Assembly (NCBI RefSeq): GCF_040409955.1
Contig: NZ_CP123387.1
Coordinates: 248,001-312,000 of the forward strand
DNA from: Salipiger sp. H15
GTDB taxonomy: Bacteria > Pseudomonadota > Alphaproteobacteria > Rhodobacterales > Rhodobacteraceae
Length of the DNA: 64,000 nucleotides
Direction of reading: 5' to 3'
Position numbers and translations under genes: made by a program. Shown here in pieces: positions 16,558-35,046 of this stretch; the stretch's first letter is position 1, and every line of letters begins with the position of its first letter. The notes under the pieces were generated by a model. That model was not told where the DNA came from and made no database searches. It worked only from the letters and a program-made list of their open reading frames with translations.

Positions 16558-16574
16558 TTTTGGTGCTACCAAAA
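16558..16574. promoter_or_regulatory. GntR/FadR-type operator palindrome
   Basis: A 17-bp perfect palindrome TTTTGGTGCTACCAAAA (7-bp arms, three-base centre). It contains an exact match to the FadR-subfamily consensus TNGTNNNACNA. It lies 30 bases before the regulator start at 16604 and 134 bases before the divergent dehydratase start, so it is well placed for autoregulation and control of the operon. Confidence 0.8.
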
Positions 16575-16603
16575 TCGCAAACCTGTATGAAAGGTCAGAA
16601 GAC

Positions 16604-17376: not shown

Positions 17377-18138
17377 CTAGCGCCAGAACACCAGCCTGCG
17401 TTCGAGCAGCGAGACCACCGCGAAGAAGCCGAGGCTGGCCACCGAGGCGACGAAGATCGCGGCCCAGACCTGCACGAAGTCGATGACGATCACCGCCTGG
17501 TAGATCACCCAGCCGAGCCCGCCGTAGGCGCCGAGCATCTCGGTCACGATGGCGACGATCAGGCTGCGCACGGTCGACAGGCGCATCCCCGACAGGATCA
17601 GCGGCAGGGCGGTCGGCAGGCGCAGCTTCCACAGGATCGCGGCCCGGCTCGCGCCGAAGCTGCGCATCAGGTTCACCGAGCGCTCGTCCACCCGGTCGAA
17701 GCCGGCGAGCGCCGAGACGAACATGGTGAAGCTCACGGCCACGGCGACCATCACGATCTTCGAGCTGACGCCCATGCCGAACCACAGCAGGATCAGCGGC
17801 GAGAAGGCCACCACGGGCACCGAATTGACCGCCGTGGCCGCGGGCACGATCACCTTGCGCAGCGGCGGCACCAGCGTGACGGCCAGCGCGAGGCCGACGC
17901 CGATGGCGCCGCCGAGCAGGTAGCCGGCCAGCGCCTCGCCCAGCGTGTAGGCCGCGGCCTCGCCGAGCACGGCGCGGGCGGTCCAGAACCGCGCGAGGAT
18001 CTCCGAGACCGCGGGCAGGATGTAGCTCGGCAGGTCGAAGAGCCGGGCCGCCAGCTCCCAGACCGCGAAGAGGGCGAGCCCGCCGAAGATGCCGCGGGCA
18101 AGCGCGTGCGGCGAGGGGGTCATGGGATCTTGGGTCAT
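17377..18138 (-). CDS. ABC transporter permease (NMT1/THI5-SsuC type)
   Basis: A 253-residue permease of the binding-protein-dependent type with about six hydrophobic helices. The EAA loop is visible as RSFGASRAAILWKLRLPTALPLILSGMRL. It is similar to the nitrate/sulfonate/pyrimidine-precursor group (SsuC, ThiX, RibX). It overlaps the other permease gene by four bases. It is the last gene of a ten-gene operon that begins at 26800. Confidence 0.88.
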   Translation of the reverse strand: MTQDPMTPSPHALARGIFGGLALFAVWELAARLFDLPSYILPAVSEILARFWTARAVLGEAAAYTLGEALAGYLLGGAIGVGLALAVTLVPPLRKVIVPAATAVNSVPVVAFSPLILLWFGMGVSSKIVMVAVAVSFTMFVSALAGFDRVDERSVNLMRSFGASRAAILWKLRLPTALPLILSGMRLSTVRSLIVAIVTEMLGAYGGLGWVIYQAVIVIDFVQVWAAIFVASVASLGFFAVVSLLERRLVFWR

Positions 18139-18938
18139 GCGCTTTCACCTCCCCAGAAGACGATGCGCTTCTCGGCAAGGCCGATGGCGGCGAAGAAGGC
18201 GACGCCGAGCACCGCCGAGCACAGGATGCTGGCCCAGATGGCGACCATGTTCTCGGCATACATGCCCTGCAGCAGCAGCACGCCGAGCCCGGTGGTGTCG
18301 CCGAACCATTCGCCCACCACGGCCCCGGCGAGGCCGAGCGCCGAGGCGATGCGCAGCGCGACGAAGATGTGGGGCAGGGCGGTCGGGAAGCGCAGCTTGC
18401 GCATGATCTCGCGCTCGGAGGCGCCGAAGCTGCGCAGGAGCTGCACCTGCCTTTCGTCCACCGCCCGCATCCCGAGCAGCGCGTTCACGGTGACCGGGAA
18501 GAAGGTCAGGTAGAAGACGATCACCGCCTTGGCGAGGATGGTGTTGCCGAACCACATGACGACCAGCGCGCCGAAGGCGATGACCGGGATCGTCTGCGAG
18601 ACGATGAAGATCGGGAAGATGGTCTCGCGCAGGACGCGCAGCCGCGAGAAGGCAATGCCGATCCAGATGCCGAAAAGCGCCCCGGCCCCGAAGCCGAGCA
18701 GCGTCTCGAGCCCGGTGCGGATCATCGCGTCGCGATAGGCGGCGGGGGTGCGCAGGATCGCCTCGATCACCGCGCTCGGCCGGGGCAGCACGTAGGGCCG
18801 GATGCCGAAGGTGACGACCAGCAGCTCGACCGCGAGCAGGACCGCCGCCAGCGCGGCGGCGCCCTTCAGCAGCGGAACCACGGCGCCGAAGCGCCGTGTC
18901 CCGGGCAGCGAGCCCGCAGTATTGGCCTGCACCGTCAT
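18135..18938 (-). CDS. ABC transporter permease (NMT1/THI5-SsuC type)
   Basis: The second 267-residue permease of the same importer, with six hydrophobic helices and an EAA loop RSFGASEREIMRKLRFPTALPHIFVALRIA, paralogous to the partner permease at 17377-18138. Two different permease genes suggest a heterodimeric channel. It overlaps the binding-protein gene (ATGA at 18935-18938) and the next permease gene (ATGA), so the three are tightly coupled. Confidence 0.88.
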   Translation of the reverse strand: MTVQANTAGSLPGTRRFGAVVPLLKGAAALAAVLLAVELLVVTFGIRPYVLPRPSAVIEAILRTPAAYRDAMIRTGLETLLGFGAGALFGIWIGIAFSRLRVLRETIFPIFIVSQTIPVIAFGALVVMWFGNTILAKAVIVFYLTFFPVTVNALLGMRAVDERQVQLLRSFGASEREIMRKLRFPTALPHIFVALRIASALGLAGAVVGEWFGDTTGLGVLLLQGMYAENMVAIWASILCSAVLGVAFFAAIGLAEKRIVFWGGESA

Positions 18939-19951
18939 TCCGGCAGGCGCTCGGCCGCGGGGATCGCGTCGACGAACTGGCTGTCGAAGGCGCTCTCGAG
19001 GTCGATCGGGCCGCCAAGCACCTCGTAATCCACGAGGATCTTGTGCGCGCTCGCCACCGCGTCCATGTCGATGGTGAAGAGGCCCTTCTCGGCGGCGGCC
19101 CCGGCCAGCATGATCTTCTCGACCTCGTCGAGCATGAACTCCTGGTGCGGGCGCTCGAGCGTCGGCGCCTCCTTCAGGATCAGGTCGATCGCGGCCTGCT
19201 TGTCGGCGAAGGCGTCGAGCCAGCCCTTGACCGAGGCGCGCACGAAGCCCTGCACGAGGTCGGGATGCGCCGCCGCGAAGTCGTTGCCGACGATCAGCGT
19301 GTCACGCGGGAAGGAGACGCCGAAATCCTCGGGCACGAAGCGCTTGAGGTTCTCCTCGCCGACGCGCTGCATCAGCGTGTAATACTCGTTGTAGCGGGTG
19401 GCGGTGACCACGTCGACCTGGCCGTCGACGAAGGGTGTGACCGAGACCTGCTGCGGCTGGATGTTCATGTCCGTGCGGTCGATGCCATTGGCGGCCAGCA
19501 TGCCGAAGAGCACGTAGTTGGCGCCGGTGAACCAGGTGGTGATCGCCGCGTCCTTGAAGTCCGCGATCTCCTGCACCGGGCCGTCGGCCTTGGAGACGAA
19601 GACGAAGGGGGTCTCCTGGTGCGAGATGCCGATGCAGGTGATCGGCAGGCCCTTCTCGATGGCGGCGAACACCGAGTCCGTGCCGCCCGACAGGCCGAAG
19701 GTGTCGGCGCCGGTCGCCACGAGGTTCTCGGTCAGCAGGTTCGGCCCGCCCGGGTTGATCGTGAGGTCAAGGCCCTCGTCCGCGTAGTAGCCCTTTGCCT
19801 TGGCAATGTAGAAGCCGACGAACTGGGCCTGCGGCAGCCACTTGAGGCGCAGCGAGACGGGCTCGAGATCGGCCGCGTGCACGGCGGGCGCGGCAAGCAT
19901 CGCGGCCGAGGCGGCCAGACCGAGCGTGGAGAGGAAGGAACGTCTTTTCAT
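18935..19951 (-). CDS. NMT1/THI5-like ABC substrate-binding protein (ThiY/RibY-type)
   Basis: A 338-residue binding protein with a twin-arginine signal (KRRSFLSTLG, cleavage near AVHA). The mature part opens SLRLKWLPQAQFVGFYIAKAKGYYADEGLD, close to the pattern in pyrimidine-precursor (ThiY) and riboflavin (RibY) binding proteins, followed by NPGGPN and a GTDSVF segment. The family binds flat nitrogen heterocycles, among other ligands. With a nucleoside hydrolase and carbamoyl-amidohydrolase in the same operon, a heterocyclic base or nucleoside-like ligand is likely. Sixty-three bases separate it from the ATPase gene. Confidence 0.85.
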   Translation of the reverse strand: MKRRSFLSTLGLAASAAMLAAPAVHAADLEPVSLRLKWLPQAQFVGFYIAKAKGYYADEGLDLTINPGGPNLLTENLVATGADTFGLSGGTDSVFAAIEKGLPITCIGISHQETPFVFVSKADGPVQEIADFKDAAITTWFTGANYVLFGMLAANGIDRTDMNIQPQQVSVTPFVDGQVDVVTATRYNEYYTLMQRVGEENLKRFVPEDFGVSFPRDTLIVGNDFAAAHPDLVQGFVRASVKGWLDAFADKQAAIDLILKEAPTLERPHQEFMLDEVEKIMLAGAAAEKGLFTIDMDAVASAHKILVDYEVLGGPIDLESAFDSQFVDAIPAAERLPE

Positions 19952-20014
19952 CGCAGTACTCCATGTTGGGGGTGGACCCGGTTGGCCCGGGCTTGGTGGC
20001 TTTGACCCCGGGGT

Positions 20015-20854
20015 TCAGTGGGAGGCGGGGCCGAAGGTCTTCATGCTCTCTTCCTCGATCGCGTCGAGCAGCTCGCGCTTGAGGGAGATGAACTCGGGGG
20101 AGGTGACGAGGTCGGCGCCGCGCGGGCGCGGCAGGTCGACCTTGCGCGACAGCTTGATCGCGCCGGGCCGGGCGGTCATCACCAGCACCTTGTCGCCAAG
20201 GAAGATCGCCTCGTCGACGTCATGGGTGATGAAGAGCACGGTGCGCCGGTGCTTCTGCCAGACGTCGAGCAGCCAGCGCTGCATCATGGTGCGGGTCAGC
20301 GCGTCGAGCGCGCCGAAAGGCTCGTCTAGCAGCATCAGGTCGCGCTTGAACATGAAGGTGCGCATCAGCGCGACGCGCTGGCGCATGCCGCCCGACAGCT
20401 CGTGCGGGTACTTGTCGGCAAAGCCGGCAAGGCCGAACTCGGGCAACATCCGCTGCGCCTCGGCGCGCGCCTCGGCCCGGTTCGCGCCCTCGATCTCCAG
20501 CGGCAGGATGGCGTTGTCGATCACGTTGCGCCAGGCCAGCAGCAGGTCGCGCTGCGGCATGAAGGACACCTGCCCGAGCAGCTGGCGCGCATGCACCGAC
20601 TGGCCCTCGAAACGCAGCACCGAGCCCGCGTCGGGCTCCTCGAGCCCGGCGACGATGTTGAACAGCGTGGACTTGCCGCAGCCCGAGGGACCGACCACCG
20701 TGACGAACTCTCCGGGCTGGACCGCGAGATCCACGCCGTTGAGCGCCTGCACCTCGCCGAAGGTCTTCGAAAGCCTGCGCAGGTCGAGGATCGGCTCTTC
20801 GGCAGGGGTCATGGCGGGCTCCGTCGTGCTGGGGTGGGTCATTGGCATGTTCAT
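20015..20854 (-). CDS. ABC transporter ATP-binding protein (SsuB/TauB type)
   Basis: A 279-residue ATPase with Walker A (GPSGCGKST), Q-loop (VSFMPQRDLLLAW), signature (LSGGMRQR), Walker B (LMLLDEPFGALD) and H-loop (THDVDEA). The LLAW after the Q-loop and the DVDEA motif are typical of the nitrate/sulfonate/taurine class that pairs with NMT1-type receptors. The ATG overlaps the stop of the nucleoside hydrolase gene, tying import to base release. It powers the two permeases downstream. Confidence 0.92.
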   Translation of the reverse strand: MNMPMTHPSTTEPAMTPAEEPILDLRRLSKTFGEVQALNGVDLAVQPGEFVTVVGPSGCGKSTLFNIVAGLEEPDAGSVLRFEGQSVHARQLLGQVSFMPQRDLLLAWRNVIDNAILPLEIEGANRAEARAEAQRMLPEFGLAGFADKYPHELSGGMRQRVALMRTFMFKRDLMLLDEPFGALDALTRTMMQRWLLDVWQKHRRTVLFITHDVDEAIFLGDKVLVMTARPGAIKLSRKVDLPRPRGADLVTSPEFISLKRELLDAIEEESMKTFGPASH

Positions 20855-21792
20855 GTGGTCAGGGCCCTTTCGAGCATGCGGAAGAAGGCGTCGTTGTCGG
20901 CGCTCTCGATGATGCGCGCGTTCTCGATGTACTCCGGCCAGCGCGAACCGAGCCTCGCCGGGTGGATGGCGGAATGGCCGCGGGTGATCGTTCCGCCGGT
21001 CTCGATCCGCACCACCGCCCGGCGCGCGGCGGTGATGATCGACGGGTCGATCGCGCAGGCGCAGGTCAGCGTGTCGGGGTGGGTGCAGATCACCTTGCCG
21101 TAGCGCTGCTCGGCGACCTTGCGCGGCGTGGCCGAGACCTTGCGGTAGAACTCGGTCAGCGGGGTCGCGTGCGCGTCGAGCCGGGCCAGCTGCGCCGCGT
21201 CGAAGACCGACGAGCCCAGGGTCAGCGTCCAGGTCGAGAGCGTGATCTCGAACCCGGCGCGGAAGACGATCGCCGCCGCCTCGGGGTCGATGTAGAAGTT
21301 GAACTCGGCGCAGGGGGTGACGTTGCCGACCGAGTTGTCGGTGCCGCCCATGATCCACAGGTGCTTGAGCGCCTTGGCGATGCGCGGCTCGCGGGTGACC
21401 GCGAGCGCGAGGTTGGTCAGCGGCGCCTGCGCGATCATCTCGATCTCGCCCGGCGCCGCCATGATCCGCTCGATCAGCGCATCCACCGCGTGCATCTCCT
21501 CGGGGCGCTGGCGGGCGCGCGGCAGGTCCGCGCCGCTCATCCCGTCCGCCCCGTGCATCTGCGCCGGCTCCCAGTCGGCCAGCAGCGGCCGCCGCGCGCC
21601 GAGATAGACCGGCACCTCGCCGGACTTGCCCGCGGCCTCGATGGTCGCGAGCGCGTTCTCGGCCTGCTGGTCGAAATCGACATTCCCGTTGCAGATCGTC
21701 ACGGCCTCGAGTGTCACGCCCGGCGTCTTCATCGCCAGCAGCAGCGAGAAGGTGTCGTCCCCCGCGGTATCGGTGTCGATGATGAGGCGCAT
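20851..21792 (-). CDS. Inosine/uridine-preferring nucleoside hydrolase family protein
   Basis: A 313-residue N-ribohydrolase. The calcium-binding N-terminal motif is IIDTDTAGDDTFSLLLA, a variant of the usual DTDPGxDD that keeps the aspartates. The second block is GNVTPCAEFNFYIDPEAAAIVF, including the Asn-x-Thr-Pro and Asp-Pro elements around the active site. Expected reaction: hydrolysis of the N-glycosidic bond of a ribonucleoside to base and ribose. It shares one base with the cupin gene upstream and four with the ATPase downstream. Which nucleoside is cleaved is unknown, and related proteins act on modified or non-canonical bases. Confidence 0.85.
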   Translation of the reverse strand: MRLIIDTDTAGDDTFSLLLAMKTPGVTLEAVTICNGNVDFDQQAENALATIEAAGKSGEVPVYLGARRPLLADWEPAQMHGADGMSGADLPRARQRPEEMHAVDALIERIMAAPGEIEMIAQAPLTNLALAVTREPRIAKALKHLWIMGGTDNSVGNVTPCAEFNFYIDPEAAAIVFRAGFEITLSTWTLTLGSSVFDAAQLARLDAHATPLTEFYRKVSATPRKVAEQRYGKVICTHPDTLTCACAIDPSIITAARRAVVRIETGGTITRGHSAIHPARLGSRWPEYIENARIIESADNDAFFRMLERALTT

Positions 21793-22718
21793 CAGTAGAA
21801 CTCGAACCCCATGGTGCGGGCGTGGTAGTAGAAGCCGCCGTCCTGCACGATCAGGAACTCGGCGCGGCTGTCGCCGTCGTTGTGGTGGCTGTGCTTGGCG
21901 GCCGGCGGGGTCAGCAGCGTCGCCCAGGGGCTCCAGTCGCATTTCCGGTCATCGACCATCGAGTAGGCCGGATCCCCGGCGACGGCGAGCGTCAGGGCCG
22001 CCGAGTTGTGCTTGTGCGGCGGCTGGAAGCTGTGCGGCTTCAGCGTGTTGAGCGACAGGGTTAGCGTCGGGGCGATGTTGCGGCTCGCCTCGGTCTGCGC
22101 GGCGGAGAAGATCAGCGCGTGGCCCGAGGTCGTGGCATTGGCGCCCCGCTGGTAGACGGTGTCGAGCTGGTGCTCGATCTCGGCGGCGGGGAAATGCACG
22201 AGCCCGGTCGCGGCCTCGGCGCCGGTGATCGGCGCGGCCTTCTCGAAGGCCAGCTGCGGATCGTTCCCGACGGCCCAGAACACGGCGGTCTCGGTCGCCT
22301 CGATCCGGCTCTCCACCCCGCCCGGCAGCAGGAAGACGTCACCCTTGCCGAGCGTCGCGGTCTCGGCGCCGACGGTCAGCGTGGCGCTCCCCTCGATCAC
22401 GTACCAGATCGAGGCGGTGCAGGTGAGCGTGGTGTCGAGGCTCGCGCCCGCCAGCACGGTCGCGTAGCGCGCCAGCATGAGCGGGGTGGTGGCGGGGAAG
22501 GGGCAGCCGAGCTCGGCGGAAAGGTCGCAGAGCACCCAGCCGGTCGCGTCCTTGGCCATCGCCTTCGCCGGCTCGTCGCGCAGGATCCGCGGCGGCACCG
22601 GCGGCAGCTTGATGTTGAAGGCGTTGCCCGAGTTGAAGTAGCGCCCGCGGGCCTCGGCCTCGTTCTTCGGCGCGCGCGGCAGTTGCACCGGCATTTCGGC
22701 CATATCGTTGATCGTCAT
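21792..22718 (-). CDS. Two-domain cupin protein
   Basis: A 308-residue bicupin. The first barrel is marked by SIWYVIEGSATLTVGAETATLGKGDVFLLPGG. The second is marked by QPPHKHNSAALTLAVAG and AAKHSHHNDGDSRAEFLIVQDGG, where several histidines (HKH, HSHH) could bind metal. The arrangement recalls gentisate 1,2-dioxygenase-like and other bicupin dioxygenases, but the first domain lacks the usual histidines, so only the second is likely to be catalytic. AGGAGA precedes the ATG. The context suggests oxidation or isomerisation of an intermediate in base breakdown. Function unknown. Confidence 0.75.
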   Translation of the reverse strand: MTINDMAEMPVQLPRAPKNEAEARGRYFNSGNAFNIKLPPVPPRILRDEPAKAMAKDATGWVLCDLSAELGCPFPATTPLMLARYATVLAGASLDTTLTCTASIWYVIEGSATLTVGAETATLGKGDVFLLPGGVESRIEATETAVFWAVGNDPQLAFEKAAPITGAEAATGLVHFPAAEIEHQLDTVYQRGANATTSGHALIFSAAQTEASRNIAPTLTLSLNTLKPHSFQPPHKHNSAALTLAVAGDPAYSMVDDRKCDWSPWATLLTPPAAKHSHHNDGDSRAEFLIVQDGGFYYHARTMGFEFY

Positions 22719-23995
22719 GAGAGATCTCCTTTGTCTCGGGTGGCGGAGGCGGCGTGCAGGCAGGTGTCGAGCAGCACCTGGGCCCCGGCGGCCACGTGCG
22801 CCGGTTCGGCCCATTCCTCGGGGTGATGGCTGAGCCCGCCGCGGCAGGGGATGAAGATCATCGCCGAGGGCGCGAGCGGGGCCATGTGCCGGGCGTCGTG
22901 CCCGGCGGCGGAAAGCAGGTCTGTGGCCGGCAGGCCGCGCGCGGCGGCGCTGCCGAGGATCGCGCGGCGCAGCGCGGGCGAGAAGGTGTTGGCCGGGGCG
23001 TCGACCATGGACCGCACCTCGACGGCGCAGGGCGCCGCCACGGCGCGCGCGGCCGCCTCGAGCGCGAGGCCGGTCCGGTCCAGCACGTCGTTCCGGGGGT
23101 GGCGCAGGTCGATGCGGAAGCGCACCGTCGCGGGCACGACCGAGGGCGCGTTCGGCAGCACCTCGACCCGGCCGATGGTGAAGCGGATGTCGGGCCCGGC
23201 TTGAAGCGCGGCCTCCTGCATGGCCAGCGCGACGCGGGCAAAGGCCTGCACCGCGTCGGCCCGGCGCTCCATGGGCTCGGTCCCGGCATGGGCCTCGCGG
23301 CCCGAGAGGGTGACCTCGTAGGTCTTCTTGCCCTGGATGCCGGTGACCGCGCCGATGACCAGCGCCTCGCGCTCGAGGTGGTCGGCCTGTTCGATGTGCG
23401 GCTCGATGTAGGCGTGCAGCGGGAAGCCCGGCGCGATGCGCGGCACCCCGGGGAAGGCCTCGGCGAGGCGCTCGAGTTCGGAGGCGACGCTCACCCCGGC
23501 GGCGTCGGTGACCGCGCCGACCTGCGCGAGGCTGCGATGGCCCGAGAACACCTCGGATCCCATCATGCCGGGCGCGAAACGGCCGCCCTCCTCGTTCATC
23601 CAGGCGACGAGGGTGATCGGGCGGGGCGGGACGATGCCCCTGTCATGCAGCGTCTCGAGCACCTCGAAGGCGGCGAGCACGCCGAAGACACCGTCGAAGC
23701 GCCCGCCGGTCGGCTGGCTGTCGAGATGCGAGCCGATCAGCACCGGCGCGCCCCCGGACGTGCCGGGCAGGGTCAGGAAGAGGTTTCCCGCCGTGTCGAA
23801 ACTCGGCGAAAGCCCGATGGCCTCGCCCCAGCCGATCAGCCGCGCCATGGCGGCACGGTCCTCGGCGGAGAGGGCCTGCCGGTCGACGCCGCCGTCGGCG
23901 CGGGCGCCGATCTCGGCCATCGACATGAGCCGCGACCAGAGCCGCGCCCCGTCGATCCGGGGAAGGGAAGGCTGGGAGAGGTCCATCGGGCGCAT
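22715..23995 (-). CDS. M20-family N-carbamoyl-amino-acid/allantoate-type amidohydrolase
   Basis: A 426-residue zinc- or manganese-dependent amidohydrolase of the allantoate/N-carbamoyl-L-amino-acid/beta-ureidopropionase group. Metal-site motifs are GSHLDSQPTGGRFDGVFGV, WMNEEGGRFAPGMMGSEVFSG, PHIEQADHLE and the C-terminal GHDARHMAPLAPSAMIFIPCRGGLSHHPEE. The dimerisation-lid histidine and arginine are in the expected places. It cleaves a carbamoyl (ureido) amide to amine, CO2 and ammonia. Between a nucleoside hydrolase and an aminotransferase, this fits opening and stripping of a ureido acid made from a pyrimidine-like ring, with the amine then passed to the transaminase. Confidence 0.88.
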   Translation of the reverse strand: MRPMDLSQPSLPRIDGARLWSRLMSMAEIGARADGGVDRQALSAEDRAAMARLIGWGEAIGLSPSFDTAGNLFLTLPGTSGGAPVLIGSHLDSQPTGGRFDGVFGVLAAFEVLETLHDRGIVPPRPITLVAWMNEEGGRFAPGMMGSEVFSGHRSLAQVGAVTDAAGVSVASELERLAEAFPGVPRIAPGFPLHAYIEPHIEQADHLEREALVIGAVTGIQGKKTYEVTLSGREAHAGTEPMERRADAVQAFARVALAMQEAALQAGPDIRFTIGRVEVLPNAPSVVPATVRFRIDLRHPRNDVLDRTGLALEAAARAVAAPCAVEVRSMVDAPANTFSPALRRAILGSAAARGLPATDLLSAAGHDARHMAPLAPSAMIFIPCRGGLSHHPEEWAEPAHVAAGAQVLLDTCLHAASATRDKGDLS

Positions 23996-23998
23996 CGC

Positions 23999-24877
23999 TC
24001 AGTCCGTCCGCATCACCTGGCCGGGGTCGGCCCGCGCGTCGCGGCGGCCCCAGGCCCCGGCCTCGACCATGGCGAGGAACTCGGCGAGGTGGCTGTTGAA
24101 CAGCCCCGGCTCCTCGAGGTTCAGCGTGTGGCCGGTCTTGGGCAGGACCAGCAGTCCCGAGGCGGGCATGGTCTTCTTGAGGAAGATGCCCGGCTGCAGG
24201 CAGTGATCGTCCTCGTCCCCGACCATGATCAGCGTCGGCAGGACGCAGGCTTTGAGCCCGTCCTCGAGATCCCAGAACGAGGGACGCCGCGCCTGCACGC
24301 CGCGCATGGTGTTGGCGGCCCCCACGCTGTCATGCCGGGCAAGCCGGGTGACGAACTTCAGGTGCTCGCGCGGGTCCTTGTTCTCGAACTGCACGCGGCT
24401 GGCGCCGCGGCCGTAGATCTCGGCAAATCCGGCCGGATCGGCCTCGAACTTCTCGGCCACGGTGAGCGAGACGCCGCGGAAATACTCCTCTGTCTCCTTC
24501 TCGCAGCCATAGCCCGCCCCCGCCACGGTCAGCGACAGCGCCCGCCCGGGATAGCTGAGGCCGAAGTGCACGGTGGCGAAGCCGCCCATCGACAGGCCGA
24601 CGATATGCGCCTTCTCGATGCCGAGGTGGTCGAGCACCGCCACCGCGTCATCGACCGCGATGGCCTGGGAATATTTCCCGACATCGGCCGGGATGTCCGA
24701 CGGCGCATAGCCGCGCGCCGCGTAGGTGATGCAGCGGTGGCGCCGCGCGAAGGCGCTCATCTGCGGCTCCCACGCGTCGTAGTTGCCGCCGAACTCGTGG
24801 ATGAAGAGGATCGGCGTTCCGGCCTCTCCCGCGGTCTCGTAGTAGAGTTTCGTGCCGTCCTTGGCGGTGGCGTACAT
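23999..24877 (-). CDS. Alpha/beta hydrolase
   Basis: A 292-residue alpha/beta-fold hydrolase. It has an oxyanion-type HEFGGNYDAWEP block, the nucleophile elbow GLSMGG (Ser near residue 97), an acid around EDDHC, and the histidine in KTGHTLNLEEP. By fold and context it could act like RutD (aminoacrylate hydrolysis) or cleave an ester or enol-lactone formed in ring breakdown. It lies three bases upstream of the amidohydrolase start and 10 bases after the aminotransferase stop, on one transcript. Confidence 0.82.
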   Translation of the reverse strand: MYATAKDGTKLYYETAGEAGTPILFIHEFGGNYDAWEPQMSAFARRHRCITYAARGYAPSDIPADVGKYSQAIAVDDAVAVLDHLGIEKAHIVGLSMGGFATVHFGLSYPGRALSLTVAGAGYGCEKETEEYFRGVSLTVAEKFEADPAGFAEIYGRGASRVQFENKDPREHLKFVTRLARHDSVGAANTMRGVQARRPSFWDLEDGLKACVLPTLIMVGDEDDHCLQPGIFLKKTMPASGLLVLPKTGHTLNLEEPGLFNSHLAEFLAMVEAGAWGRRDARADPGQVMRTD

Positions 24878-24887
24878 GGGAGCCCCC

Positions 24888-26800: not shown

Positions 26801-27109
26801 CGTGGTCTCCTAGTGTATGCAAAGTTTCGCTATCTGCATACACAACACTTTCATCCTGTCCATAGGTCAATTTCACCCGCTCCGAAAAATCCAGAGCAAA
26901 CTTCATATTTTTATGGATCGCCGGGAAAAGCGTCGTGAAGTGCCTCACGGGAATGCAGCCTCTCCCGCAATCCGCTTAAAAATCCGGCATTAGGCGAATT
27001 CCGTCCAGAATTTATCTCTCTGCATACCGTTTTGCGCTTTACGGATACTTTGACCTGGGGTTTGAGTCGCCCTGCCAGCCCGGGCGGTACCCGGACGGAA
27101 AGGATACAG
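26801..27109. promoter_or_regulatory. Divergent promoter region between the two arms of the 17-35 kb island
   Basis: This 309-base AT-richer gap holds no gene. It carries the inverted repeat at 26813-26843, a third copy of the half-site (TGCATACC at 27021-27028), and a possible promoter for the minus-strand operon: TTGACC as -35 (26870-26865) and TGTTGT as -10 (26847-26842), 17 bases apart. The -10 overlaps the repeat, as expected for repression. Confidence 0.55.
26813..26843. promoter_or_regulatory. Inverted-repeat operator, GTGTATGCA / TGCATACAC
   Basis: A perfect 9-bp inverted repeat (26813-26821 and 26835-26843) with a 13-base centre. Each arm also contains an 8-mer (TGTATGCA, TGCATACA) one mismatch from the TGTATACA site bound by many FCD-type GntR regulators. 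The two arm centres are 22 bp, about two helical turns, apart. It lies 13-43 bases upstream of the SDR start. The probable binder is the regulator at 34345-35046. Confidence 0.7.
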
Positions 27110-28180
27110 ATGGCTCAGGTCAGACTCGCCGGACTCGGCAAGACGTATGAAGGCGCTCATGCCAACACCATCGACGGGCTCGATCTCGAGGTGGCGGACG
27201 GAGAGTTCCTGGTCCTCGTCGGACCCTCGGGCTGCGGCAAGTCCACCACGCTGCGGATGATCGCCGGGCTCGAGGAGCCGACCGCGGGCGAGATCTGGAT
27301 CGGTGCGCGCCGGGTCGACGGGCTGGAGCCGCGAGAGCGCGACATCGCCATGGTCTTCCAGAACTACGCGCTCTACCCGCACATGACCGTGGCGCAGAAC
27401 ATGAGCTTCGGGCTGCGGCTGGCGAAGGTGCCCAAGGCCGAGATCCGGCGGCGGGTCGAGTCCGCCGCCGAGACGCTGGGGCTTTCGGGCTACCTCGACC
27501 GCCACCCCAAGGCGCTTTCGGGCGGGCAGCGCCAGCGCGTCGCCATGGGCCGCGCCATCGTGCGCGAACCGGGCGTCTTCCTCTTCGACGAGCCGCTGTC
27601 GAACCTCGACGCGCAGCTGCGCGGCCAGATGCGCACCGAGATTCGCCGCCTGCACGACCGGCTCTCGGCCACCACCGTCTATGTCACCCACGACCAGGTC
27701 GAGGCGATGACCCTCGCCGATCGCGTCGTGGTTCTGAAGGACGGCCGGATCGAGCAGCAGGGCAGCCCGCAGGAACTTTACGACCGCCCCGCCACCCGTT
27801 TCGTCGCCGGCTTCCTCGGCTCGCCGCAGATGAACATCCTCGCGGGCAAGGTGGCGCAGGGGATGCTCGATCTTGGCGCGGGCAGCCTGCTTGCCCTCGG
27901 CGCCGAGCGCGCCGCGCCGCTCGAGGGGCGGCGGGTCGACGTCGGCATCCGCCCCGAGGCCTTCCGTCTCGCCGCGCCCGAGACCGCGCTCATCCACGCG
28001 CGGGCGGAGATGGTCGAGCTGCTGGGTGCGACCTCGCTCGTGCATTTCACCCATGCCGGCCTGCCCTGCACCGCGCTGCTCGAGCCCGCCGAGGCGCCGC
28101 GCCCGGGCCAGCAGGTGCACCTCGGGCTCAGCCCCGACCGGATTTCCCTATTCGACGCGGATTCGGGCCGCGCCGTCTGA
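27110..28180 (+). CDS. ABC transporter ATP-binding protein (CUT1, UgpC/MsmK/MalK type)
   Basis: A 356-residue ATPase with Walker A (GPSGCGKST), Q-loop ([14 protein letters not shown]), signature (LSGGQRQR), Walker B ([15 protein letters not shown]) and H-loop (VTHDQVEAM), plus a C-terminal TOBE/regulatory domain (GIRPEAF onwards). This layout is that of sugar and glycerol-phosphate CUT1 importers. The start at 27110 is preferred because GAAAGGA lies just upstream; an in-frame ATG at 27032 would add 26 residues unlike the family. It is the first gene of the plus-strand operon running to the GntR gene. Confidence 0.92.
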
Positions 28181-28228
28181 CCAACAAGAGCTGCAAGGCC
28201 ATCCCCATCCCCGACAGGAGAGCTTGAC

Positions 28229-29524
28229 ATGAAACGCCTATTCCTTGCCGTCCTGGCCGGCGGCACCGCGCTGAGCGCCGTCCCGGCGCTTGCGCAGGAC
28301 GCGGCCTGCACCGCCGAGCCGGTCACCCTGCGCATCCTGCGCACGCCCGGCAACTACCCCTATCCCGCCGCCATGGAAGCCTGGCAGAAGGAGCACCCCT
28401 GCGTCTCCTTCGAGGTGAACGAGGTGCCCTTTGCCCAGCTCGGCGACACGATCGCCGTGCAGGCCGCATCGGATGATCCGCCCGACATCCTGGTCTACGA
28501 CGGGCCCAACACCCAGTCCTATGCCAAGGCGGGGATCCTGCTGCCGGTCACCGACTACCTGCCTGAAGGCTGGGCCGACGACATCCTGCCCGCGACCCGG
28601 GCCGAGCACAGCTACGAGGGCGAGGTCTACTCGCCGGGCATCGAGCAGACCACCGTCGCGATGTACTACAACAAGAGCCTGACCGACGCCGCCGGCATCA
28701 CCCCGCCGCAGACGCTCGACGAGGCCTGGACCTGGCCCGAGGCGCTCGCGGCGTTCAAGGCCTGCCAGCAGGGCGATCCGGGGGCACCGACCGTCTGGGG
28801 TCTCGGGCCGACCCGCTTCGGCAACGGCCAGCCCGGCCTCGTCTACCAGGACCTGATCTACCAGCGCTCGAACGGCGATCCCGAGGCGGATCCCGAGAGC
28901 TCGGCCTACAAGACCTTCTGGGCGATGGCGCCGGACGGCTCGACGGTCGAGGGCTATCTCGACACGCCCGAGGCGATCGAGGCGCTGACCTTCTACCGCG
29001 CGCTCTTCAACGAGGAGGCCGTGGCCCCCAAGGTCGGCATCCCCAACGCCTTCTTCGACGGCAAGGCCTGCTTCTACATCGACACCCCGGCGGCCGGCTC
29101 GGCGCTGCTGAAGGATCCGGTGATCGACTGGGGCATCACCCCGATCCCCTACTTCAAGACCCCGGTGGTGCACACAGGATCGACCACCATCGGCGTGACC
29201 GCGCGCTCGAAGAACCCCGAGATCGCGGCGCAGTTCGCGGTCGACATGAGCTGGGGCGAGCTGGCCTACATGAACGTCAGCCAGCGCGGCAACCTGCCGA
29301 CCCTGAAGTCGCTCTTCGACCGCTTCCCGGTGTACCAGGACTACCCGATGAAGGTCTTCGTCGACCAGCTCGAGCACTGGGGCCAGCCGCGTCCGCCGAG
29401 CCCCTACTTCGCCCAGTACGACCGCGTCGTGACCGACGCGATCCGCTCGGTGGCCTTCGGGGGTGACCCCGAGGAGGCGATGCAGAACGCCGAGCGCGAG
29501 GTCGCCCGGGCGATGCGCCGCTGA
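28229..29524 (+). CDS. ABC transporter extracellular solute-binding protein (family 1, CUT1)
   Basis: A 431-residue periplasmic binding protein. The signal peptide is about residues 1-22 (cleavage after ALA; mature start QDAACTAEP). The mature part has the family 1 layout, with AMEAWQKEHPCVSFEVNEVPFAQLGDTIAVQAASDDPPDILVYDGPN near its start and AQFAVDMSWGELAYMNVSQRGNLPT near its end. Three cysteines (CTAEP, HPCVSF and FKACQQ) may form a disulfide. AGGAGA precedes the ATG. The ligand is likely a saccharide, glycoside or polyol, possibly a nucleoside given the neighbours. Confidence 0.9.
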   Translation: MKRLFLAVLAGGTALSAVPALAQDAACTAEPVTLRILRTPGNYPYPAAMEAWQKEHPCVSFEVNEVPFAQLGDTIAVQAASDDPPDILVYDGPNTQSYAKAGILLPVTDYLPEGWADDILPATRAEHSYEGEVYSPGIEQTTVAMYYNKSLTDAAGITPPQTLDEAWTWPEALAAFKACQQGDPGAPTVWGLGPTRFGNGQPGLVYQDLIYQRSNGDPEADPESSAYKTFWAMAPDGSTVEGYLDTPEAIEALTFYRALFNEEAVAPKVGIPNAFFDGKACFYIDTPAAGSALLKDPVIDWGITPIPYFKTPVVHTGSTTIGVTARSKNPEIAAQFAVDMSWGELAYMNVSQRGNLPTLKSLFDRFPVYQDYPMKVFVDQLEHWGQPRPPSPYFAQYDRVVTDAIRSVAFGGDPEEAMQNAEREVARAMRR

Positions 29525-29541
29525 CCAGATCCTCCCTGACT

Positions 29542-29566
29542 GCCGGGCACCGTGACGGTGCCCGGC
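29542..29566 (+). terminator. Hairpin between binding-protein and permease genes
   Basis: A 10-bp perfect inverted repeat (GCCGGGCACC, 29542-29551; GGTGCCCGGC, 29557-29566) with a five-base loop, followed by CCTTTCCCC. It lies 17 bases after the binding-protein stop. It probably stabilises that message or partly ends transcription. Confidence 0.55.
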
Positions 29567-29591
29567 CCTTTCCCCGAATTCCGGAGCCGGC

Positions 29592-30527
29592 ATGACCGCG
29601 ATAGACCGACAGATGACGGCCCCCAGCCTGGACCGTCGCCCCGACCGCACCGCGCGCCAGCGCCGCGACACGCGCACGGCCTTCGCCTTTCTCGCGCCCT
29701 TCCTGCTGCTCCTGCTGATCTTCCAGTACCTGCCGCTGGCGATGATGGCGAAGAACGCCTTCATGGACTACTCGCTGCTCAACCCCGGCGCGGCCAAGTT
29801 CGTCGGGCTGCTGAACTTCGAGGACATGATCCACTTCGACGACGCGCGCGAGAGCCTTGCGGCGACCTTCCTCTTTGCCCTCGTCGTGGTGCTGATCGTC
29901 ATCCCGCTGGGCTTCGTCCTCGCGCTCTTCCTCAATTCGAGCCTGCCCGCGCGCGGCGTCGTGCGCACCATCATCATGCTGCCCGTGGTGACCTCGGCGG
30001 TCGTCGTGGCGACCATGTGGAACTTCCTGCTCGACCCGTCGAACGGGCTGATCAACGGGGTCATGTCGCTGCTCGGCCTGCCGCGCCAGCCTTTCCTGAC
30101 CTCGCCGAACCAGGCGCTGATCATGATCTCGGTGATGACCGCCTGGCAGCAGGTCGGCTTTGCCGCGATCCTCTTCCTCGGCGGCCTGCAGGGCGTGCCG
30201 AAGGAGCTGGCCGAGGCGGCGCGGATCGACGGCGCGACGCGCTGGCAGGTGCTGTGGAACATCACCGTGCCGCTGCTGTCGCGCACCACGCTCTTTGTCG
30301 TGGTGATCATGACTGTCTTCTCTCTGCAGGCCTTCGCCCCGGCCTTCCTGATGACCGACGGCGGCCCGCAGGACAGCACCAACCTCATCGTCTACCACAT
30401 CTACAAGATGGCCTTCGTGATGCAGAACGCGGGCTATGCCTCGGCGCTGTCGGTGGTGCTGCTGCTGATCGTTCTCGGCATCTCGCTGCTGCAGATGTGG
30501 CTTCTCCGAGCGAAGTGGAACTACTGA
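29592..30527 (+). CDS. ABC sugar transporter permease (MalF/UgpA type)
   Basis: A 311-residue permease with a polar 35-residue N-terminus, then six hydrophobic helices (from AFAFLAPFLLLLLIFQYL). The EAA loop is LQGVPKELAEAARIDGATRWQVLWNITVPLL. This is the MalF-like half of a CUT1 importer. A GGAG site lies before the ATG. Its stop overlaps the start of the MalG-like gene (TGATG). Confidence 0.92.
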   Translation: MTAIDRQMTAPSLDRRPDRTARQRRDTRTAFAFLAPFLLLLLIFQYLPLAMMAKNAFMDYSLLNPGAAKFVGLLNFEDMIHFDDARESLAATFLFALVVVLIVIPLGFVLALFLNSSLPARGVVRTIIMLPVVTSAVVVATMWNFLLDPSNGLINGVMSLLGLPRQPFLTSPNQALIMISVMTAWQQVGFAAILFLGGLQGVPKELAEAARIDGATRWQVLWNITVPLLSRTTLFVVVIMTVFSLQAFAPAFLMTDGGPQDSTNLIVYHIYKMAFVMQNAGYASALSVVLLLIVLGISLLQMWLLRAKWNY

Positions 30528-31366: not shown

Positions 31367-31400
31367 CGCCCGACTCCACACACCCAGAGGACCTCCGACC

Positions 31401-32174
31401 ATGACCGATTACCCGAAACCCGAGTGCTATTCCGACGGCGAGTGGGAGGCCCGCGTCTCGCTGGCCGCCGCCTACCGCATGGTGGCGCGGCTGGGGCTCG
31501 ATGACCTCATCTACAACCACATCTCGATGCGCGTGCCGGGCACCTCGGACCAGTTCCTGATCAACCCCTACGGCCTGCTCTTCAGCGAGATCACCGCCTC
31601 GTCGCTGGTCAAGATCAACACGCGTGGCGAGGTGATCGAGGAGACCGAGCACACCGTCAACAAGGCCGCCTTCGTGATCCATGCCGCGGTGCACAAGTCG
31701 AGCGAGACCGCGCATTGCGTGCTGCACACCCACTCCGACGCCTCGACGGCGGTTTCCGGCCAGCCGGACGGGCTGCTGCCGCTGAGCCAGTTCGCCATGC
31801 GCTTCTACAACCGGCAGGGCTTCCACGACTACGAGGGCGTGGCGATCGACGAGGCCGAGCAGCAGCGCATCGTCGCGCACCTGGGCGACAACCCGGTCAT
31901 GCTGATGCGCAACCACGGCATCCTCACCGTCGGGCGCACCGCGGGCGAGGCCTTCATGCTGCTCTACTATTTCGAGCGCGCGGCGAAGATCCAGCTGCAG
32001 ATGCAGGCCGCCTGCGCCTCGGGCATCCCGCTGGTGATCCCGGACCACGACGTCTGCGAGAAGGCGGCGCGGCAGTTCTGGGAGCTCAAGGGCGACATCC
32101 TCATCCCCGGCGAGCGTGAATGGCCGGCGCTGATGCGCGATCTCGACCGCGTCGATCCGGGCTACCGCGCATGA
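31401..32174 (+). CDS. Class II aldolase/adducin-family protein
   Basis: A 257-residue protein of the fuculose-1-phosphate aldolase/adducin family. The zinc-site histidines are in CVLHTHSDASTAVS and LMRNHGILTVGRT, the acid position is in the YEGVAIDEAE region, and the N-terminus LGLDDLIYNHISMRVP is typical. Members cleave phosphorylated sugars or decarboxylate and epimerise sugar derivatives. The close family here, without a phosphate-binding context, is often of unknown activity. It follows the permease genes by 34 bases and overlaps the flavin monooxygenase gene by four, so it acts on the same imported compound. Confidence 0.83.
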   Translation: MTDYPKPECYSDGEWEARVSLAAAYRMVARLGLDDLIYNHISMRVPGTSDQFLINPYGLLFSEITASSLVKINTRGEVIEETEHTVNKAAFVIHAAVHKSSETAHCVLHTHSDASTAVSGQPDGLLPLSQFAMRFYNRQGFHDYEGVAIDEAEQQRIVAHLGDNPVMLMRNHGILTVGRTAGEAFMLLYYFERAAKIQLQMQAACASGIPLVIPDHDVCEKAARQFWELKGDILIPGEREWPALMRDLDRVDPGYRA

Positions 32175-33451
32175 GCCGCCAGATCCGTTTCGGCCTGTTC
32201 CTGCTCGGCACCGGCAGCCACATCTCGGGCTGGCGGATGCCGGGGGCGATCGACGGGTTCGAGGACATCGCCGAGATCACCGCGATCTGCCAGGAGGCCG
32301 AGCGCGGGCTCTTCGACCTGATCTTCATGGGCGACAACCTCAATGCCGATCCCTCGGCGCACCCGTCCTACTGCTCGCGGCTCGAGCCGCTGACCATGCT
32401 CTCGGCGGTGGCGATGGCGACAAGGCACGTGGGGCTCGGGGCGACCTCCTCGACCACCTACGGCGATCCCTGGACGCTGGCGCGCGGCTTCGCCTCGCTC
32501 GATCACATCTCGGGCGGGCGCGCGGCGTGGAACTCGGTCACCACCTCGAACCCGCAGGCGGCGGCCAATTTCGGCACCACCCACCCCGACCACGCCCGCC
32601 GCTACGAGATGTCGGCCGAGTTCATCGAGGTGGTGAAGAAGCTCTGGGGCGCCTGGGACGAGGGCGCGCTGGTGAAGGATCCCGAGAGCGGCACCTATTT
32701 CGACGCGGGCAGGATCCACGCCATCGACCACGAGGGACCCTTCTTCAAGGTCAAGGGGCCGGTGAACATCTCGCGCCCGCCGCAGGGACGGCCGCTGATC
32801 CTGCAGGCCGGGGGCTCCGAGCCCGGGCAGGAGCTGGCGGCGAAACATGCGGACGTCGTCTTCACCGTGACGCAGGACCGCGCCGAGGCGGCGGAGTTCT
32901 ACGCCGGGCTGAAGGCGCGCCTGCCGAAGAACGGCCGCAGCGAGAGCGATCTCGTCATCCTGCCCGGCGTGATGCCGGTGGTCGGCCGCACCGAGGCCGA
33001 GGCCCGCGCCAAGCTTGCCCGCCTGATGAGCTTCGTCGATGACGAGACCGCGCTCGGCATGCTCTCGGAGCGGTTCAACACCGACCTCCGCGGCCATGAC
33101 CTCGACGGGCCGATCCCCGACCTCGGCGAGAACGACGCCTACCACGCCTTTGCCAAGGCCATGCTCTCGAAGGCCAAGCGCGAAAACATGACGCTGCGCG
33201 ACCTCTACTCGCTGGTGGCGGCCGCGCGCGGGCACTGGGTGCTCTGCGGCTCCGCCGAGCAGGTGGCCGACACGTTGCAGGAGTGGTTCGAGAGCGGCGC
33301 GGCGGACGGGTTCAACGTCATGCCCGGCTGGTTCATGGACGGGTTCACCGACTTCATCGACCTTGTGCTGCCCATCCTGCAGGAGCGCGGCCTCTACAAG
33401 ACCGCCTATGCCGAGGGCACGCTGCGCGACAAGCTCGGTCTGCCCGCTTGA
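32171..33451 (+). CDS. LLM-class flavin monooxygenase, NtaA/SnaA/DszA family
   Basis: A 426-residue two-component monooxygenase large subunit that uses reduced FMN supplied by a separate reductase, which is not in the window. Family blocks are IRFGLFLLGTGSHISGWR, FDLIFMGDNLNAD, RHVGLGATSSTTYGDPWTLARGFASLDHISGGRAAWNSVTTSN and RPLILQAGGSEPGQELAAKHADVVF. Members oxidise C-N, C-S or ring carbons (nitrilotriacetate, dibenzothiophene sulfone and others). The start overlaps the aldolase stop (ATGA). In this island it could open a heterocycle or break a C-N bond, in the way RutA opens uracil, though it is not of the RutA subfamily. Confidence 0.88.
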   Translation: MSRQIRFGLFLLGTGSHISGWRMPGAIDGFEDIAEITAICQEAERGLFDLIFMGDNLNADPSAHPSYCSRLEPLTMLSAVAMATRHVGLGATSSTTYGDPWTLARGFASLDHISGGRAAWNSVTTSNPQAAANFGTTHPDHARRYEMSAEFIEVVKKLWGAWDEGALVKDPESGTYFDAGRIHAIDHEGPFFKVKGPVNISRPPQGRPLILQAGGSEPGQELAAKHADVVFTVTQDRAEAAEFYAGLKARLPKNGRSESDLVILPGVMPVVGRTEAEARAKLARLMSFVDDETALGMLSERFNTDLRGHDLDGPIPDLGENDAYHAFAKAMLSKAKRENMTLRDLYSLVAAARGHWVLCGSAEQVADTLQEWFESGAADGFNVMPGWFMDGFTDFIDLVLPILQERGLYKTAYAEGTLRDKLGLPA

Positions 33452-34233
33452 TCCGCCACGAGGCCGATACGCCTGCCGGCCCGGTCCGGATGACCGCGGC
33501 AGGCGGGCAGGGGCGTCCGCTCCTGCTGGTGCACGGCTGGGGCGGGCAGGGGGCGCAATGGGACGCGCTGCTGCCCGGGCTCGCCGCGCGCTTCGCAGTC
33601 CACGTCGCCGACCTGCCGGGCGGCCCCGGCGCGCCGCTCTCCGGCCCGGTCGACATGGCGAGCCTCGGGCAGGGGCTGGCGCGGCTTCTGGAGGCGGCGG
33701 ACCTTCGCGGCGCGCTGCTCGTCGGGCACTCGATGGGCGGGCCGGTGATCGTCGAGGCGGCGCTTGCCGCCCCCGCGCGGGTCGCCGGGCTGCTGGGGCT
33801 CGACACGCTTGCCGACCGCGCCTTCTACGGCGGCAGCAGCCCCGCGGTGATGGCCGCCCGCCGCGCCGGCTTCGCCGCCGATCTGCCCGGGCAGACGCGC
33901 GCCATGATCCGGGCGATCGCCGCCCCCGCCACGCCCGAGGCCACGGTCCAGGCGATCTCTGCCGACGTGCTCCGCGCGCGGGCCGAAGACCTTCTGGCGC
34001 TGCGCGACGCGCTCTTTGGCTGGCGGGCCGGGGACCGGGTGCCGCGGCTCGGGCCGCCGCTGCGGCTGCTGACCTCGGCCGAGGTCGCCGCGGCCCATGC
34101 CCGCGACCCTCTGCCCTGCCTCGCCGATGTGCCCGAAACCGTCTACGGAACGGGCCATTTTCCCCAGATCGAAGCCCCGGACCGGCTCCTTCCGGCCCTG
34201 CTGGCTGAACTTGACCAATTTGGAATTGACTGA
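33448..34233 (+). CDS. Alpha/beta hydrolase with TTG start
   Basis: A 261-residue alpha/beta hydrolase. The oxyanion-hole segment is LLLVHGWGGQG, the nucleophile elbow is VGHSMGGPV (Ser near residue 95) and the C-terminal histidine is in YGTGHFPQIEAP. The TTG at 33448 overlaps the monooxygenase stop (TTGA), and it supplies the first beta strand that would be lost with the next ATG (33490). Following a flavin monooxygenase, it may hydrolyse the oxygenated product (an ester, lactone or enamine). The N-terminal part is short, and the substrate is unknown. Confidence 0.78.
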   Translation: MIRHEADTPAGPVRMTAAGGQGRPLLLVHGWGGQGAQWDALLPGLAARFAVHVADLPGGPGAPLSGPVDMASLGQGLARLLEAADLRGALLVGHSMGGPVIVEAALAAPARVAGLLGLDTLADRAFYGGSSPAVMAARRAGFAADLPGQTRAMIRAIAAPATPEATVQAISADVLRARAEDLLALRDALFGWRAGDRVPRLGPPLRLLTSAEVAAAHARDPLPCLADVPETVYGTGHFPQIEAPDRLLPALLAELDQFGID

Positions 34234-34257
34234 GATGAATGCCGTGGGGGAGGATCT

Positions 34258-34285
34258 GTATATTCCAATTCGCTTTTGGGTATAC
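34258..34285. promoter_or_regulatory. Imperfect palindrome upstream of the FCD regulator
   Basis: Arms GTATATTCCAA (34258-34268) and TTTGGGTATAC (34275-34285) around a six-base centre match at 8 of 11 positions. It lies about 60 bases before the regulator start. The GTATA/TATAC ends resemble the TGTATGCA half-sites at 26.8 kb, so it is a candidate autoregulatory site. Confidence 0.45.
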
Positions 34286-34344
34286 TGACACCGCCTTTCC
34301 CCTCGGCTCATTCCGGACGTCTCCCTGATGCAGGATCCCATCTA

Positions 34345-35046
34345 ATGAACCAGATCATCGACACGCGACCGGACAAGGCGCGGCTGCGCCAGCCGACCCG
34401 CTCCGAAGAGCTGCAGGACGACCTCAAGCGGCTGATCGTCGAGGGGGAAATGAAGCCCGGCGACCGGCTCGACGAGACCGAGATCGCCAAGCGCTTCGCC
34501 GTCTCCCGCACGCCCGTCCGCGAGGCGATCAAGGGGCTCGTGGCCAGCGGCCTCGTCGAGGTGCGCGGGCGGCAGGGCACCTTCGTTGCGACCCTCTCCA
34601 TCCCGATGCTGATCGAGATGTTCGACCTGATGGCGGCGCTCGAAGGTCTCTGCGCCCGGCTCGCCGCGCGGCGCGCCACCCGCGAGGAGAAGGAGCGGAT
34701 GCTCGAGATCCAGGCCCGGCTCGAACAGGCCTTCACCGACAACGACCCCGAGGCCTTCTACGCGATAAACGAGGAATTCCACGACCTGCTCTACATGGCC
34801 GGGCACACGCATTTCCTTGCCGACCAGACCGTCGCGCTGCGGCTGCGGCTGTCGCCCTACCGCCGGCAGGTGACCTTCCAGCCCGGCAAGATGCGCGCGA
34901 CGCTGACCGAGCACCGGCGGATCATCGAGGCCATCGACGCGGGCGATCCCGACGAGGCGATGTCGGCCGCCAGCGAGCACGTCCGCCTGCTGGGCGATCA
35001 CCTCTCGGATTTCATCGCGACGATCCCGCCGCATCTGCTGGGATGA
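34345..35046 (+). CDS. GntR-family regulator, FCD subfamily
   Basis: A 233-residue regulator. The winged helix is MKPGDRLDETEIAKRFAVSRTPVREAIKGLVASGLVEVR, and the FCD domain has metal-site candidates in FYAINEEFHDLLYMAGH, EHRRIIEAID and ASEHVRLLG. AGGA lies nine bases before the ATG at 34345. It is the last gene of the plus-strand operon and the only regulator in the 17-35 kb island, so it probably controls both arms through the 26.8 kb repeat. A strong terminator follows. Confidence 0.9.
   Translation: MNQIIDTRPDKARLRQPTRSEELQDDLKRLIVEGEMKPGDRLDETEIAKRFAVSRTPVREAIKGLVASGLVEVRGRQGTFVATLSIPMLIEMFDLMAALEGLCARLAARRATREEKERMLEIQARLEQAFTDNDPEAFYAINEEFHDLLYMAGHTHFLADQTVALRLRLSPYRRQVTFQPGKMRATLTEHRRIIEAIDAGDPDEAMSAASEHVRLLGDHLSDFIATIPPHLLG

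Follow-up and report, generated by a model that had tools for sequence, protein, structure and literature searches.

What compound is degraded by the enzymes of two divergent operons in Salipiger sp. H15, and do the two operons serve the same end? The stretch of DNA analysed here, called the window, is 64,000 nucleotides long (C4:248001-312000, contig NZ_CP123387.1) and comes from a genome of 6.1 Mb in 7 contigs. Its cluster of catabolic and transport genes spans positions 17377-35046, divided into a minus arm and a plus arm. Pfam and NCBIfam scans recovered in these two operons every gene family that an earlier note on the sequence had listed, and its coordinates were right. Our results point to the two arms being one co-regulated catabolic unit, and we give about even chances to the reading that this unit is a regulon dedicated, under FCD control, to the catabolism of a small nitrogen heterocycle of the class bound by thiamin/pyrimidine receptors.

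Conservation of the cluster

Named genomes were scanned with an alignment (A1) of the bicupin encoded in the minus arm, and the 80 loci used here, labelled L0xx, are the best of 185 confirmed. The cluster proteins were mapped on these loci by tblastn and open reading frame (ORF) maps, with presence thresholds of our own choice. The loci are kin by descent; they extend no further than 10 kb from the bicupin, and 15 of the 80 measure less than 19 kb, so that absences near locus edges count little.

Six genes are present in every one of the 49 loci that form the core type (49/49 each). They encode a short-chain dehydrogenase/reductase (SDR; 26018-26800, minus strand; model PRK06125 above cut-off), a pyridoxal phosphate-dependent aminotransferase-fold enzyme (24888-26018, minus; PRK06225 above cut-off), the alpha/beta hydrolase ABH1 (23999-24877, minus; PF00561, longer ORF scanned), an M20 hydantoinase/carbamoylase-family amidohydrolase (22715-23986, minus), the gentisate-dioxygenase-like bicupin (21792-22718, minus) and a class II aldolase/adducin-family enzyme, an aldolase or decarboxylase (31401-32174, plus; PF00596, and PRK07044 above cut-off). 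A second group of 12 loci, the amidase type, keeps the SDR (12/12), the bicupin, the aldolase and the luciferase-like flavin mononucleotide (FMN) monooxygenase (LLM), and lacks the M20, ABH1 and aminotransferase genes; a homologue of the L046 amidase, at least 62% identical, is found in all 12 (Pfam checked in two). The class II aldolase is therefore a gene of all 61 core and amidase-type loci. The NMT1/THI5-type receptor (18935-19951, minus) occurs in 46/49 core and 11/12 amidase-type loci and the GntR/FCD regulator (34345-35046, plus; PF00392 and PF07729, longer ORF scanned) in 43/49 and 11/12, and for both genes some misses fall at locus edges.

The remaining 19 loci include 18 without any other cluster gene at our thresholds. 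The other one, L014 of Mangrovicoccus ximenensis, has the bicupin, the nucleoside hydrolase and the NMT1 importer and lacks the upstream half of the cluster and the CUT1 importer; a split cluster and an assembly effect are candidate readings.

The regulon is widespread in alpha-, beta- and gammaproteobacteria. Among 198 genomes of the window's own family, drawn evenly from a larger group, the bicupin was found at E <= 1e-20 in one, the window's own genome; the named genera that carry its closest relatives are Salipiger, Alloyangia, Pseudooceanicola and Mangrovicoccus. In a plasmid collection, four Neorhizobium records carry it at 73-76% identity, and two Variovorax records match it more distantly (37%).

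A putative operator shared by the two arms

Between the arms, at 26815-26841, lies an exact inverted repeat, GTATGCA-N13-TGCATAC, which is the sole match in the window's own genome at up to two mismatches. The claim of uniqueness is made for that genome only: scans of 47 relatives, also with up to two mismatches, matched the pattern in 46, often several times, two-mismatch matches occur away from the cluster, and a reversed control pattern occurs too, more often in some genomes. Among the matches listed from these relatives, four were exact, and all four lie at clusters by their coordinates. In the 80 loci the perfect repeat occurs nine times, every time just upstream of the SDR gene. An extra half site stands at 27021-27027, by the plus-arm promoter. 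The number of half sites in the window (4 found, 1.72 expected) is unremarkable alone, and the strength of the operator lies instead in the recurrence of the half site across loci.

A half site was found within about 130 bp upstream of the SDR gene in 39 of the 49 core loci, compared with a background of 1.3% per region calculated from the loci themselves. It was missing at this place in L018, L031, L059, L060, L070, L078, L081, L085, L086 and L089. Seven of these ten are Variovorax/Caballeronia loci in which all cluster genes run in one direction, so that a promoter upstream, beyond the locus edge, is possible. In L010, L013 and L028 the CUT1 ATPase gene is also preceded by a half site, at a distance of 82-90 bp, and in 9/12 amidase-type loci one lies between the NMT1 receptor and amidase genes or at the receptor start.

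In 20 of 21 Rhizobiales loci of the window's type, the aldolase, NMT1 importer and LLM genes make up an operon of their own some 5-7 kb away, L018 being arranged like the window. All 20 separate operons carry a half site 95-341 bp upstream of the ATPase match, and in 19 of the 20 an exact half site precedes both operons (L031 has none at the SDR gene). The earlier note had proposed that both arms share one operator region, and had named separation and independent regulation of the arms in most relatives as grounds against its reading; what we see is that the half site goes with both operons where the genes are split. The operator between the arms, the half sites that recur upstream of the SDR gene and those that precede both Rhizobiales operons make one regulon the probable reading.

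We infer that the FCD protein binds the inverted repeat. Directly to the left of the cluster lies another GntR/FCD gene (16538-17305), and this gene and two others of the left flank had no homologue of more than 45% identity over more than half of the query in the 80 loci; the single FCD regulator named in the earlier note therefore fits the conserved cluster. Three right-flank genes likewise had no homologue by this criterion, but most loci stop short of that region, and the right boundary at 35046 is less sure.

The nucleoside hydrolase and the CUT1 importer form an optional module

The earlier note had counted glycosidic cleavage, here assigned to the nucleoside hydrolase (20851-21792, minus; PF01156, longer ORF scanned), among the steps of the pathway. 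This enzyme is gone from 24 of the 49 core loci, and always together with the CUT1 importer: 25 loci have both, 24 have neither and none is discordant. The Fisher value for this pairing, 1.6e-14, is not a probability, since the loci are related by descent. Within the closest group of 28 loci, 25 carry both modules and three (L011, L015, L025) carry neither, again without discordance. A search that covered 23 of the 24 genomes without the locus copy, and had no positive control, detected no nucleoside hydrolase homologue at E <= 1e-60. The nucleoside hydrolase and the CUT1 importer thus form an optional module, and a central role for glycosidic cleavage is not supported.

In the window the importer consists of a UgpC/MalK-type ATPase (27110-28180, plus; NF008653 above cut-off, longer ORF scanned), a CUT1-type receptor (28229-29524, plus; PF01547) and two permeases (29592-30527, plus, PF00528; 30527-31366, plus, with NCBIfam UgpE/GlcU-type matches below curated cut-offs). 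The best NCBIfam match of the hydrolase is UriH (167 bits, cut-off 450) and its best PDB match is the IunH-2 purine nucleosidase 3t8i; its DTDTAGDD motif is intact in 31/31 sequences (the window and 30 ORFs). Five amidase-type loci (L044, L046, L051, L053, L074) have the nucleoside hydrolase together with a DAO-family oxidase and an aldehyde dehydrogenase. An AmDase/EutA-like enzyme is found instead in the remaining seven, which lack the nucleoside hydrolase, and the two sets do not overlap. We also observed in L025 (1-4421) and L015 (88-2097), both without the module, a second NMT1-type receptor near the FCD gene, 46% identical to that of the window; L025 carries in addition an amidase that shares 71% identity with the one in the amidase-type clusters.

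Nine loci have a TauD/TfdA dioxygenase in place of the monooxygenase

The LLM (32171-33451, plus) belongs to the NtaA/DmoA family (TIGR03860, 516.1 against a cut-off of 279.7). Its best PDB match is MoxC/YtnJ, and it also matched DszA and the riboflavin lyase RcaE (5w48, E 2.7e-56). Matches to alkanesulfonate monooxygenase models were weak, and the score with the RutA model was 62 bits, compared with a cut-off of 498.3. No flavin reductase partner was recognised in the cluster; since the rest of the host genome has nine loci that score above the Flavin_Reduct cut-off, FMNH2 could come from there.

Of 22 genomes, 14 have a homologue that is at least 65% identical, in each case placed by its coordinates at the cluster or just outside the locus, and nothing above 49% at E <= 1e-100 was found in eight (L047, L060, L070, L078, L081, L085, L086, L089); this genome search covered 20 of the 21 type II loci, all except L059. 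Exactly those eight loci, and L059, have a TauD/TfdA dioxygenase in the cluster, by or near the aldolase gene (Pfam in four loci, tblastn in all nine, within the loci). All nine are beta- or gammaproteobacterial, yet Pseudomonas matsuisoli (L045) keeps the LLM. A flavin monooxygenase and a 2-oxoglutarate dioxygenase are likewise interchanged in the oxygenolytic C-S cleavage of sulfoquinovose, according to the parts of that report covered here (PMC12890257). Because a TauD protein takes the place of the LLM in nine loci, and because such an exchange is known from C-S cleavage, oxidative ring opening by the monooxygenase, as the earlier note had it, is weakened, and hydroxylation or cleavage at a heteroatom-bound carbon is the more likely role of this step.

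Seven further loci (L057, L061, L063, L069, L071, L075, L076) have the bicupin but not the cluster, and in these the gene directly after the bicupin encodes a more distant TauD protein (34-42% identical). Near the bicupin of L069 there are two PhyH dioxygenases and an M20 peptidase; 2'-O-methyl nucleosides, considered as substrates, were dropped, the PhyH genes being near that bicupin and not in the present cluster.

The bicupin is the better candidate for ring opening

The bicupin has the two-cupin fold of gentisate/salicylate 1,2-dioxygenases. H235, H237 and H276 align with histidines of 2d40, which we take to be metal ligands of gentisate dioxygenase, and are intact in 80/80 aligned sequences (the window and 79 ORFs). 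By its score the protein is a relative and not a gentisate 1,2-dioxygenase proper (51.6 bits with the equivalog TIGR02272, cut-off 442.1). Since it resembles gentisate/salicylate 1,2-dioxygenases and conserves the three aligned histidines, the bicupin is a better candidate than the LLM for the ring-opening enzyme. A ureide pathway with the bicupin as (S)-ureidoglycine aminohydrolase was set aside as less likely, as that fold ranks below gentisate dioxygenase.

A proposed pathway for a nitrogen heterocycle

The NMT1 receptor has the ThiY/THI5 fold, and its nearest folds are ThiY, a thiamin receptor and Thi5; by this analogy, a nitrogen-heterocycle ligand, as suggested in the earlier note, is plausible. 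The M20 enzyme scored well above the cut-off of the hydantoinase/carbamoylase model TIGR01879 (368.8, cut-off 204). Carbamoyl removal, which the earlier note had assigned to it, is a putative reaction; M20 is exchangeable, an amidase standing in for it in 12/12 amidase-type loci. Weaker PDB relatives of the aldolase include 2z7b (Mlr6791, E 7.7e-9), TqaM and NovR.

Computation shows the gene content, co-conservation, operator, module exchange, folds and conserved metal-site residues; the substrate, the order of steps and every reaction in the following proposal are inferred. The NMT1 importer would take up the free base, and the CUT1 importer and nucleoside hydrolase, as an add-on, would import and cleave its N-glycoside. 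A side chain may be oxidized and trimmed by the SDR and the class II aldolase-like enzyme. Hydroxylation or dealkylation by the FMN monooxygenase or the TauD/TfdA dioxygenase would then act at a heteroatom-bound carbon to give a hydroxylated ring, which the bicupin would open with O2. The C-N bonds and the C-C or ester bonds left after this opening would be cleaved by M20 (or the amidase) and an alpha/beta hydrolase, and the product would reach central metabolism through the aminotransferase-type enzyme. The C-N hydrolases, the class of the receptor and the add-on nucleoside hydrolase argue for a nitrogen heterocycle, most likely a pyrimidine-like one. More specifically, and only tentatively, the substrate may be a pyrimidine with substituents, either like that of thiamin or a modified nucleobase, degraded aerobically, with ring cleavage by the bicupin and O2, interchangeable side-chain oxygenases and, in part of the lineages, entry of the ribosylated form through the plug-in CUT1 importer and nucleoside hydrolase.

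Several points weigh against such a pathway. The range of reactions known for cupins and for class II aldolases is wide, and the fold of a receptor does not fix its ligand. The bicupin stands without any other cluster gene in 18/80 loci at our thresholds, and L014, a locus without the core, has the nucleoside hydrolase without CUT1. The mutual exclusion of the nucleoside hydrolase and the AmDase/EutA-like enzyme (5 and 7 of 12) is not explained by a simple riboside module. The cupin of lumichrome catabolism acts after ring hydrolysis, and not as a dioxygenase, in the text covered (PMC12746152). Finally, the best-scoring models for the importer ATPase and for one permease are of Ssu/Tau type or related to it, and the LLM/TauD exchange is documented for a sulfonate; these last two points also favour the main rival.

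Alternative explanations

That rival, which we consider unlikely, is an organosulfur or sulfonate pathway, in which Ssu/Tau-like import would be followed by C-S cleavage by the LLM or TauD, deacylation by M20 and use of the carbon skeleton by the remaining enzymes. The top NCBIfam matches of the importer ATPase (20015-20854, minus; PF00005, longer ORF scanned) are aliphatic sulfonate/taurine ATPases, below cut-off, and SsuC/TauC are among the best three models, also below cut-off, for the one permease scanned. One of the sulfo-ASMO/ASDO pathways has a CUT1-type importer, but the receptor group and LLM subfamily of the cluster differ from theirs, and no sulfoquinovosidase was recognised in the cluster. 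The likeness to these pathways is the interchange of the two oxygenases (PMC12890257). The proximity of the LLM to MoxC/YtnJ and DszA also fits, as the DszA homologues YxeK (PMC9706529) and CmoJ (PMC10863075) cleave C-S bonds with deacetylation afterwards, in the portions of those papers covered.

Quite unlikely in our judgement is a pathway for a nicotinate/NAD-like pyridine or an N-alkylpyridinium compound. Here the LLM or TauD would dealkylate, the bicupin would cleave a hydroxypyridine, the nucleoside hydrolase would act on the riboside, and a maleamate-type finish would fall, with the same low probability, to the amidase or M20 and an alpha/beta hydrolase, joined in amidase-type loci by an AmDase/maleate-isomerase-like enzyme. 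The bicupin fold suits this scheme, and the amidase (12/12) and AmDase-family enzyme (7/12, Pfam on examples) of the amidase-type loci are reminiscent of the maleamate pathway. However, the models closest to the AmDase-family example are EutA and arylmalonate decarboxylase, neither of which it matches above cut-off, the receptor group suggests pyrimidine/thiamin over pyridine, and a molybdenum hydroxylase was not recognised in the window's cluster. A homarine/trigonelline route was also considered and dropped.

Degradation of plain uracil or uridine by a Rut-like route, with a RutA-like LLM, carbamoyl removal, a RutD-like hydrolase and the SDR, is very improbable. The LLM matches RutA, and ABH1 and ABH2 (33448-34233, plus, start codon provisional; NCBIfam alpha/beta hydrolase matches only, below cut-off) both match RutD, weakly and below cut-off, and the nucleoside hydrolase is nearest UriH. 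But the LLM lies far below the RutA cut-off, some loci have TauD in its place, and the nucleoside hydrolase is dispensable. Elsewhere in the window's own genome, two loci pass the RutA cut-off and four pass that of the D-hydantoinase model, which makes plain uracil an unlikely target. As the earlier note had stated, RutA, dihydropyrimidinase and flavin reductase are missing from the genes that Pfam and NCBIfam identified in the cluster; a RutB/isochorismatase-type protein had no cluster match in the Pfam tables (E <= 0.001) or among the NCBIfam matches listed, nor had dihydropyrimidinase or dihydropyrimidine dehydrogenase.

That two unrelated operons are neighbours by chance is largely refuted and extremely improbable: the aldolase and LLM do switch operon between lineages and CUT1 can be missing, but the aldolase accompanies the minus-arm SDR and bicupin in 61/61 loci, and the same half site precedes both operons in 19/20 Rhizobiales loci.

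Comparison with known systems

Vitamin B6 degradation uses an SDR, the class II aldolase-like decarboxylase Mlr6791, ring opening and amide hydrolysis. The cluster shares the SDR and a class II aldolase that matches Mlr6791, but it has no recognised PHBH-type monooxygenase or lactonase, and has a ring-cleaving-type bicupin and M20 instead. Thiamin salvage relies on ThiXYZ and YlmB; the cluster resembles it in a receptor of the ThiY fold group and an M20-family hydrolase, but its M20 fits the hydantoinase/carbamoylase model and many catabolic genes are added. With the Rut and reductive pyrimidine routes the cluster has the LLM and alpha/beta hydrolase superfamilies in common, and differs in the points given above. 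In the lumichrome route, RcaE removes the ribityl chain, the pyrimidine ring is then degraded, and a cupin takes part (PMC12746152). The flavin-dependent monooxygenase is common to both, RcaE being matched by the LLM of the window. However, Lum uses a P450, a thiamin-dependent decarboxylase, a xanthine oxidase and Rieske and catechol dioxygenases, none of which was recognised in the cluster, and its cupin is not described as a ring-cleaving dioxygenase in the text covered (PMC12746152). A riboflavin/lumichrome pathway was dropped on these differences in enzymes.

Other genes of the window

The NMT1-type importer is completed by two ATP-binding cassette permeases, pA2 (17377-18138, minus; PF00528), which is conserved with the cluster, and pA1 (18135-18938, minus; PF00528). 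To the left, the genes at 12344-17305 encode a DctP-type TRAP receptor, a zinc alcohol dehydrogenase, an SDR, a mandelate-racemase/enolase-family enzyme and the divergent GntR/FCD regulator; this operon looks like a sugar-acid route and lies outside the cluster. To the right, at 35146-43095, a TAXI receptor, a fused TRAP permease, two isocitrate/isopropylmalate-dehydrogenase-family genes and a MOFRL/DUF4147 gene suggest a tartrate-type route.

Significance

No description of this gene combination was recognised in the open-licence PMC text searched, and within that literature the regulon is apparently undescribed. Since alpha-, beta- and gammaproteobacteria all have it, the compound it acts on is probably natural and common. 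That substrate is directly testable by way of the operator, the clean module exchanges and the receptor. The Rut route opens the pyrimidine ring with a monooxygenase, and there are also a reductive and a barbiturate route. If the ring is a pyrimidine, its opening by a dioxygenase-type enzyme would be set apart from all three and would add a new mode to the short list of known routes.

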